A DNA stretch of 64,000 nt from Liolophura sinensis (Eukaryota > Mollusca > Polyplacophora > Chitonida > Chitonidae), in contig NC_088295.1 in assembly GCF_032854445.1 (NCBI RefSeq), positions 43,451,385 through 43,515,384 on the forward strand. The letters run 5' to 3'. Below are positions 50 through 40,055 of the stretch, piece by piece. The stretch's first letter is position 1; every line of letters starts with the position of its first letter. The notes beneath the pieces are model-generated. The model was not told where the DNA came from. It searched no databases and saw only the letters and a list, made by a program, of their open reading frames with translations. The position numbers and the translations under genes were made by a program.

Positions 50-300
50 TACCTTTTATTGTGGACAAGATAACTGGAGACATCCGAACATACCAGGCTT
101 TAGACAGAGAAGATTTGGCGCAGTATGTATTTCAGGCATATGTTAAGGACAACGGTCTACCAGCTCACACTGCAACAACAACGGTAACCGTGAACCTGTT
201 GGATGTGAACGACAACGCACCAGAGTTTGGCAGTTCAAGGGGTTACCATGGTAGCATCACCGAGGATGACGAATATCCCAAATACCAGGAAGTAGAAATG
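50..300 (+). CDS. Cadherin exon A1
   Basis: The acceptor is tttag before 50, in phase 1 (the codon is completed by the G ending the preceding D exon), and the donor gtaacc follows 300 in phase 0. It encodes the second half of one EC (LDRED at about residue 16), the linker DVNDNAPEF and the start of the next EC with ITEDDEYP. It is the first exon visible here. The following intron (301-1047) is largely a minus-strand SINE (708-985). Confidence 0.9.

Positions 301-40055: not shown

Follow-up and report, generated by a model that had tools for sequence, protein, structure and literature searches.

A tandem array of three-EC cadherin modules with a recurring calcium-depleted linker in the chiton Liolophura sinensis

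A window of 64,000 nucleotides from the genome of the chiton Liolophura sinensis (NC_088295.1, positions 43,451,385 to 43,515,384) carries ten tandem modules at 50-39355 of the + strand, each made of four exons (A-B-C-D) that encode three cadherin EC repeats. Judged from its motifs, every third linker, the one leading from repeat c to repeat a, is calcium-depleted, and this is the most interesting feature of the array. The best explanation, to which we give a probability of roughly 0.6 as a whole and including its hinge, is that the locus is a single giant atypical cadherin gene for a protein of the cell-surface type, with about seven non-modular ECs, eleven b-c-a cassettes and one terminal EC in this order. 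By analogy with known cadherins, its product would combine calcium-stiffened three-EC rods with recurring calcium-poor hinges and may serve as a compliant tether.

Structure of the array and descent of the triplet

Exons were sought by enumerating open segments bounded by AG and GT near the lengths and phases given in an earlier sequence-only reading of the window, and the remaining exons were read by frame. The ten A-B-C-D copies of that reading were found in this way and again by exon-class HMMs, which were made from those exon classes; they recover the same exons, with A, B and C of module 4 (M4) in pieces (Table 1). The exon phases are 1-0 for A, 0-0 for B, 0-1 for C and 1-1 for D, and they join as had been supposed: the spliced model of 38 exons, with M4 A-C omitted and the last exon included, runs to 3148 residues with no stop. 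Nine of the ten copies (M1-M3 and M5-M10) have all four exons intact and joined in one open frame, whereas A, B and C of M4 are frameshifted. The proposed constancy of exon length holds for most copies, being 254 nt in 8/9 readable A exons, 174 nt in 8/9 readable B exons, 253 nt in 6/9 readable C exons and 279-282 nt in seven of the ten D exons, but fails in the others, whose lengths stand in Table 1. Copies had been thought to reach 40055; the modules extend to 39355, and the last exon, from 39547 on, additionally encodes one further EC. A codon-usage model trained on the gene itself (leave-one-out) is positive in 37 of the 38 exons and negative in M7 B.

Table 1. Coordinates of the cadherin exons in the window and of the upstream module M0 (negative positions lie upstream of the window)
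Feature	Position	Strand	Basis	Remark
M0 exon B0	-3543..-3370		HMM, gene finder	
M0 exon C0	-1801..-1549		HMM, gene finder	
M0 exon D0	-689..-408		HMM, gene finder	
M1 exon A	50..300	+	AG/GT scan, frame reading, HMM	251 nt
M1 exon B	1048..1221	+	AG/GT scan, frame reading, HMM	
M1 exon C	1677..1929	+	AG/GT scan, frame reading, HMM	
M1 exon D	2570..2851	+	AG/GT scan, motif scoring, HMM	bears calcium-depleted c-to-a linker, like other D exons
M2 exon A	4145..4398	+	AG/GT scan, HMM	
M2 exon B	4680..4853	+	AG/GT scan, HMM, genome search	
M2 exon C	5279..5531	+	AG/GT scan, HMM	
M2 exon D	6242..6520	+	AG/GT scan, HMM, genome search	
M3 exon A	7002..7255	+	AG/GT scan, HMM	
M3 exon B	7533..7706	+	AG/GT scan, HMM	
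M3 exon C	12874..13126	+	AG/GT scan, HMM	
M3 exon D	13525..13806	+	AG/GT scan, HMM	
M4 exon A	14491..14742	+	HMM; borders by eye	frameshifted
M4 exon B	15261..15426	+	HMM; borders by eye	frameshifted, below class length
M4 exon C	15970..16221	+	HMM; borders by eye	frameshifted
M4 exon D	16891..17178	+	AG/GT scan, HMM	288 nt, frame intact
M5 exon A	17886..18139	+	AG/GT scan, HMM	
M5 exon B	18560..18733	+	assembled model, HMM	
M5 exon C	18896..19151	+	AG/GT scan, HMM	256 nt
M5 exon D	19703..19981	+	assembled model, HMM	
M6 exon A	20456..20709	+	AG/GT scan, HMM	alternative donor, end 20712
M6 exon B	21516..21689	+	AG/GT scan, HMM	
M6 exon C	22301..22553	+	AG/GT scan, HMM	
M6 exon D	23798..24076	+	AG/GT scan, HMM	
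M7 exon A	25158..25411	+	AG/GT scan, HMM	
M7 exon B	26134..26304	+	AG/GT scan, HMM	171 nt
M7 exon C	26925..27177	+	AG/GT scan, HMM	
M7 exon D	27776..28057	+	AG/GT scan, HMM	
M8 exon A	29450..29703	+	AG/GT scan, HMM	
M8 exon B	30289..30462	+	AG/GT scan, HMM	
M8 exon C	30914..31166	+	AG/GT scan, HMM	
M8 exon D	31845..32126	+	AG/GT scan, HMM	
M9 exon A	32666..32919	+	AG/GT scan, HMM	
M9 exon B	33452..33625	+	AG/GT scan, HMM	
M9 exon C	34618..34864	+	AG/GT scan, HMM	247 nt
M9 exon D	35163..35432	+	AG/GT scan, HMM	270 nt
M10 exon A	35776..36029	+	AG/GT scan, HMM	
M10 exon B	37371..37544	+	assembled model, motif scoring, HMM	without CxxxC typical of most B exons
M10 exon C	37919..38174	+	AG/GT scan, HMM	256 nt
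M10 exon D	39059..39355	+	assembled model, HMM	297 nt, divergent
Last detected coding exon	39547..40055 (or 40050)	+	frame reading, model, codon usage, Pfam Cadherin on terminal EC	end of final a-type EC and one terminal EC

The gene had been read as entering the window from the left, and this proved correct when the count was extended into 100 kb of upstream sequence, where an eleventh module (M0) was found at about -4.6 kb to -408, its exon A part divided between two exons, together with about seven non-modular ECs. Seven EC ends precede B0, at about -19.9, -16.3, -14.2, -12.3, -10.7, -5.4 and -4.1 kb, and the first six are off the triplet pattern and scattered over small exons with provisional borders. 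The simple gene finder over-predicts, calling 70 exons for the 38 (31 of them exact); hence the small upstream exons are provisional, and the analysis took in just the ones recognisable as parts of ECs. The total is about 41 ECs, namely about seven upstream, 33 in eleven triplets (M4 counted) and one terminal. Also upstream, at about -18.9 to -17.0 kb, lies a minisatellite with a unit like PRQYNLLIEVIVSN and long stretches open in one frame; an upstream EC exon has a 3' end and donor that match this unit.

The ECs fall into three position classes: a consists of exon D and the next exon A, b of the end of A, all of B and the start of C, and c of the rest of C and the start of D. Since an a-type EC spans D and the next A, the cut point of the module is an arbitrary choice. 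Twenty-seven module ECs were compared, with a3, b4 and c4 unusable owing to M4 and the terminal EC set aside. Identity averages 36.0, 41.8 and 41.2% within classes a, b and c and 22.1-24.5% between classes, and the nearest neighbour lies in the same position class for all 27 ECs. In the EC tree, classes a, b and c come out as single groups (bootstrap 94, 100 and 96% in 200 trees), and each class needs one change, a value that none of 500 label shuffles reached for any class; further supports for the class branches, 91/83, 89/81 and 91/91, are under the starred level. By these comparisons the triplet is the unit of descent, far from chance, and the view that three ECs with their introns were duplicated together is upheld by the nearest neighbours and the tree.

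Pairwise identity between modules is 31-47% and shows no neighbour effect (Spearman -0.137, 1092 of 5000 permutations as low; without M10, 0.011 and 2617 of 5000). Given this range, its independence of distance and the lack of resolution in the module tree, the multiplication of the cassette is old. No recent homogenisation and no recent unequal exchange are apparent in the sequences, and unequal exchange remains the usual route to such arrays. The earlier phrase "unequal exchange at module level" thus finds support as to module-level duplication but not as to exchange, neighbours being no more alike than distant modules; a neighbour effect, which would have pointed to ongoing exchange, was sought and not found. 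Common intron sequence between modules was rejected: of 80 intron-to-intron matches 18 are of the same class, about chance for four classes, 62 are not, and 37 lie on opposite strands, a pattern that dispersed repeats would give. A higher-order unit of two modules (M1/M3, M6/M8), hinted at by sister pairs in the EC tree, was dropped, as the forks of the module trees are mostly open, M6/M8 reaches no more than 90/89 and 90/90, and M1 and M3 stand in an open fork.

Among the matches listed in a genome search with B-exon protein, 11 of 11 fall at this locus. The corresponding D-exon search lists ten matches here (E <= 5.3e-13), with M10 absent among them, and nine elsewhere (E >= 8.2e-6; the best candidates were scored), and no close paralogue of the B or D exons was found elsewhere in the genome among the matches listed. 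A search for relatives in viral contigs gave 58 pattern matches, none of which was confirmed.

Several other elements occur in the window. The intron between M3 B and C contains, at 8506-11100, the remains of a retroelement, presumably Penelope-like, with a GIY-YIG domain at the Pfam cut-off and reverse-transcriptase-like frames recognised by eye, two of which were tested and have no Pfam match. Through a 106-base tandem duplication (92%) at 2791-3002, the intron has a second copy of the 3' end of M1 exon D and of its donor. Dispersed SINE-like repeats, for example at 16265-16390, 23333-23456 and 54967-55090, lie in many introns and match one another on both strands. Two similar candidate first exons, at 53068-53350 and 59385-59699, which we take to be DPY19-like, have a hydrophobic segment, a common LWFSNI ending and no Pfam match.

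Calcium motifs and the c-to-a linker

According to the available part of PMC5120219, calcium between repeats n and n+1 is bound by XEX (base), DRE/DYE and DXNDN of repeat n and by DXD and XDX (top) of repeat n+1. All five motifs are present in 9/9 a repeats and 9/9 b repeats, under a scoring that accepts one N in place of D (b06), one D in place of E (a10) and NDH in place of NDN. The c repeats have DXD and XDX in 9/9, and the basal glutamate, the D of DRE and DXNDN in 0/9 each, with an acidic third DRE position in 5/9; by reading, M4 exon D and the upstream c0 are likewise without DRE and DXNDN. The period-3 pattern fits 31 of 31 readable array ECs, and none of 200000 shuffles did as well; this fit uses hand-entered states, omits b4 and a3 and judges c4 from its D exon alone. 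Scores at the HMM columns along the spliced protein read 230331330133033133033133133031, a 3-3-low rhythm that departs at the first (cut) EC, at the join omitting M4 A-C and at the terminal EC; the scoring HMM derives from ECs of this gene and is biased to it. No such rhythm was seen in nine ORFs at seven other cadherin loci of the genome, where the upstream half-site is often lost in single repeats.

The c-to-a linker has a motif of its own, with an N that is invariant in the nine D exons of M1-M9; in M0 the linker reads ISKPP, without this N. The b repeats have a CxxxC pair (IDCExxC, for example at 4680-4853) in 7/9 copies, and M0 has it too; M10 is without it and M5 keeps half of it. The pair perhaps forms a local disulfide. 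One of the nine ORFs from other loci of the genome, L040 (2172-5777, C1 at about 3.63 Mb), encodes 1202 residues with 11 EC-like repeats, in which DXNDN is mostly replaced by an RNxNxPxF-like motif and none of the 11 ECs scores above 1 of 3 for the upstream calcium half-site; it is possibly a cadherin without calcium linkers along its full length.

The a-to-b and b-to-c linkers retain all calcium ligands and would be expected to be stiff, whereas at the c-to-a linker the three motifs that repeat c would contribute are lost, so that a calcium-poor, bent or flexible joint is to be expected there. With a length of about 4.5 nm per EC, the ectodomain is predicted to consist of three-EC rods of about 13-14 nm each, separated by up to eleven evenly spaced joints. 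Such a chain of rods and joints could behave as a long, foldable and compliant, perhaps elastic, extracellular tether. More tentative is a bolder version, a filament with encoded joints in which eleven calcium-poor hinges, one per three ECs, would make a possibly secreted or unanchored molecule a foldable spring or tether; it would be the first cadherin we know of to owe its mechanics to a duplicated cassette of rod and hinge.

One may argue, though we consider it somewhat unlikely, that the triplet is real but its c-to-a junction no hinge, being a rigid packed interface or one held by a single calcium ion, with the repeat serving multivalent binding or dimerisation. Repeat a keeps DXD and XDX in 9/9, so one weak calcium site may remain at this linker, and the invariant N of M1-M9 is what would be expected of a defined packed joint; its lack in M0 and the loss of three of the five ligand motifs in all nine c repeats argue the other way. 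A non-canonical linker can nevertheless be straight, as in EC2-3 of mouse PCDH24, which holds two calcium ions (available part of PMC8691648).

Relation to described cadherin families

Pfam PF00028 (Cadherin) lies above its cut-off in 10/10 ECs scanned singly (of 28 split), the terminal EC included. Cadherin_FAT4_N passes its cut-off in pieces of 404 and 494 residues (53.6 and 43.5 against 35) and stays below it for single ECs. PDB sequence searches returned mostly generic EC matches, with a long CELSR1 chain first. No cadherin with a three-EC period was described in the literature searched, which covered titles and abstract starts and mostly excluded subscription papers. The statement that no named class has this triplet architecture thus agrees with the literature, Pfam and PDB-sequence searches, and assignment to Fat, Dachsous, CDH23 or PCDH15 is not supported.

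Fat and Dachsous are likewise giant atypical cadherins with tens of ECs, but have 34 and 27 repeats (available part of PMC11497213) against about 41 here, and the identity with either that would have removed the novelty was not found. No report of a three-EC period in Fat or Dachsous was found in the literature searched. Both families have EGF, LamG (laminin-G in Fat, before the membrane) and cytoplasmic parts, none of which was recognised in the chiton gene. A 2014 paper by Tsukasaki is said, going by its title as cited, to report that Fat and Dachsous self-bend. Drosophila N- and E-cadherin (type III/IVa) have linkers predicted to be fully or partly calcium-free, as here, but the available part of PMC8325961 describes particular linkers and no period. 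In addition, no catenin-binding tail was recognised in the chiton gene. CDH23 also has a long EC chain, and many CDH23 EC pairs match in the PDB searches; it has 27 ECs, unlike the roughly 41 here, and no triplet period in it is known to us. Clustered and delta protocadherins, with 6-7 ECs, have their EC region in one large exon, whereas the chiton ECs are split over four small exons per three ECs.

We think it rather unlikely that the gene belongs to one of the giant cadherin families already described (PCDH15/Cad99C, CDH23, Fat or Dachsous) and had a block amplified, for example one like PCDH15 EC9-EC11. PCDH15 and Cad99C have 11 ECs and a membrane-adjacent domain, compared with about 41 ECs in the chiton gene. 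The c-a-b profile (15-316) does align with 131-436 of PCDH15 chain 6c13_A, but other cadherins outscore PCDH15 in both searches, the best stretch in PCDH15 chains 11iy_C, 5w1d and 6bxu is the c-a part alone, and Pcdh gamma C4 (7jgz) is also collinear (6-320). The N-terminal exons match PCDH15 chains only among generic matches (best 11iy_C, E 3e-6, in the eleventh row), with 4xhz_A at E 0.29 among the best 60 of 66 matches, and no family-specific C-terminal domain was recognised. An origin of the cassette from PCDH15 EC9-EC11 and a PCDH15-like N-terminus, attractive by eye, were set aside as the PDB searches were suggestive but unspecific. The likeness lies in the EC9-10 pair, which resembles the c-a pair: the basal glutamate, DYE and DXNDN are missing from EC9, as their counterparts are from repeat c, and the joint is bent and calcium-free (available part of PMC5120219). 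In PCDH15, however, the downstream DXD and XDX of EC10 are replaced too, whereas the chiton repeat a keeps both, and the chiton joint, unlike that of PCDH15, comes back eleven times at intervals of three repeats. Many cadherins have calcium-free linkers, which have no motif in common and are mostly of obscure function, according to the same part of PMC5120219.

Module 4, the C-terminus and the integrity of the gene

M4 A, B and C are recognisable but have frame shifts within each exon, by reading and by HMM. Reading gives at least four frame changes in exons shorter than their class, with no stop except via frameshift, and the splice sites of M4 are normal by eye, the B donor excepted. At least four frame changes here against none in the 9447 nt of coding sequence outside M4 A-C give a Fisher p of 1.9e-5 (counts entered by hand). 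The assembly was built from 14x HiFi reads (available part of PMC11068029), which argues somewhat against sequencing error as the cause, and a search of the assembly for a second copy of the M4 region found short repeat matches only. A cassette has phase 1 at both ends, so that the gain or loss of whole cassettes could leave the frame intact, as would skipping of A4-D4.

At the other end, an in-frame stop at 40053-40055 follows the terminal EC and is overlapped by a possible GTTAGT donor (after 40050), and AATAAA/ATTAAA polyadenylation-like signals lie at 40280 and 40340, among others. A codon-usage scan found no + strand coding segment of at least 20 bits from 40056 to the window end; with a slightly different background it gave two segments, of 20 bits at 58213-58383 and of 18 bits in a tandem repeat at 63854. 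By look, neither these segments nor those of the next 60 kb resemble a cadherin tail, EGF or laminin-G, and in the window and 60 kb beyond it no convincing transmembrane exon was found and no catenin-binding tail exon recognised, although short exons can escape such inspection. Given the in-frame stop and the lack of a downstream coding segment, a secreted product is possible.

These features of the 3' end, together with the damage to M4, would also suit a secreted or decaying gene that has no membrane anchor and whose array is being lost. We regard this as improbable: all nine modules besides M4 have open frames and GT/AG sites, 37/38 exons show positive coding bias, M4 D is intact, the terminal stop is overlapped by the GTTAGT donor, and short exons may be overlooked. 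That the array is an exon graveyard or a set of separate genes is hardly credible, the damaged M4 being the only point in favour of it, since a-type ECs span a D exon and the next A exon with joins in phase and, each D needing the following A to finish an EC, the modules cannot be separate genes.

The array shows that giant cadherins can grow via multi-domain cassettes and not single repeats. The depleted linker, copied eleven times with a largely conserved motif, is a natural series in which to ask whether such linkers are selected as joints, and with the array one could ask how the length and stiffness of the filament depend on the number of cassettes.
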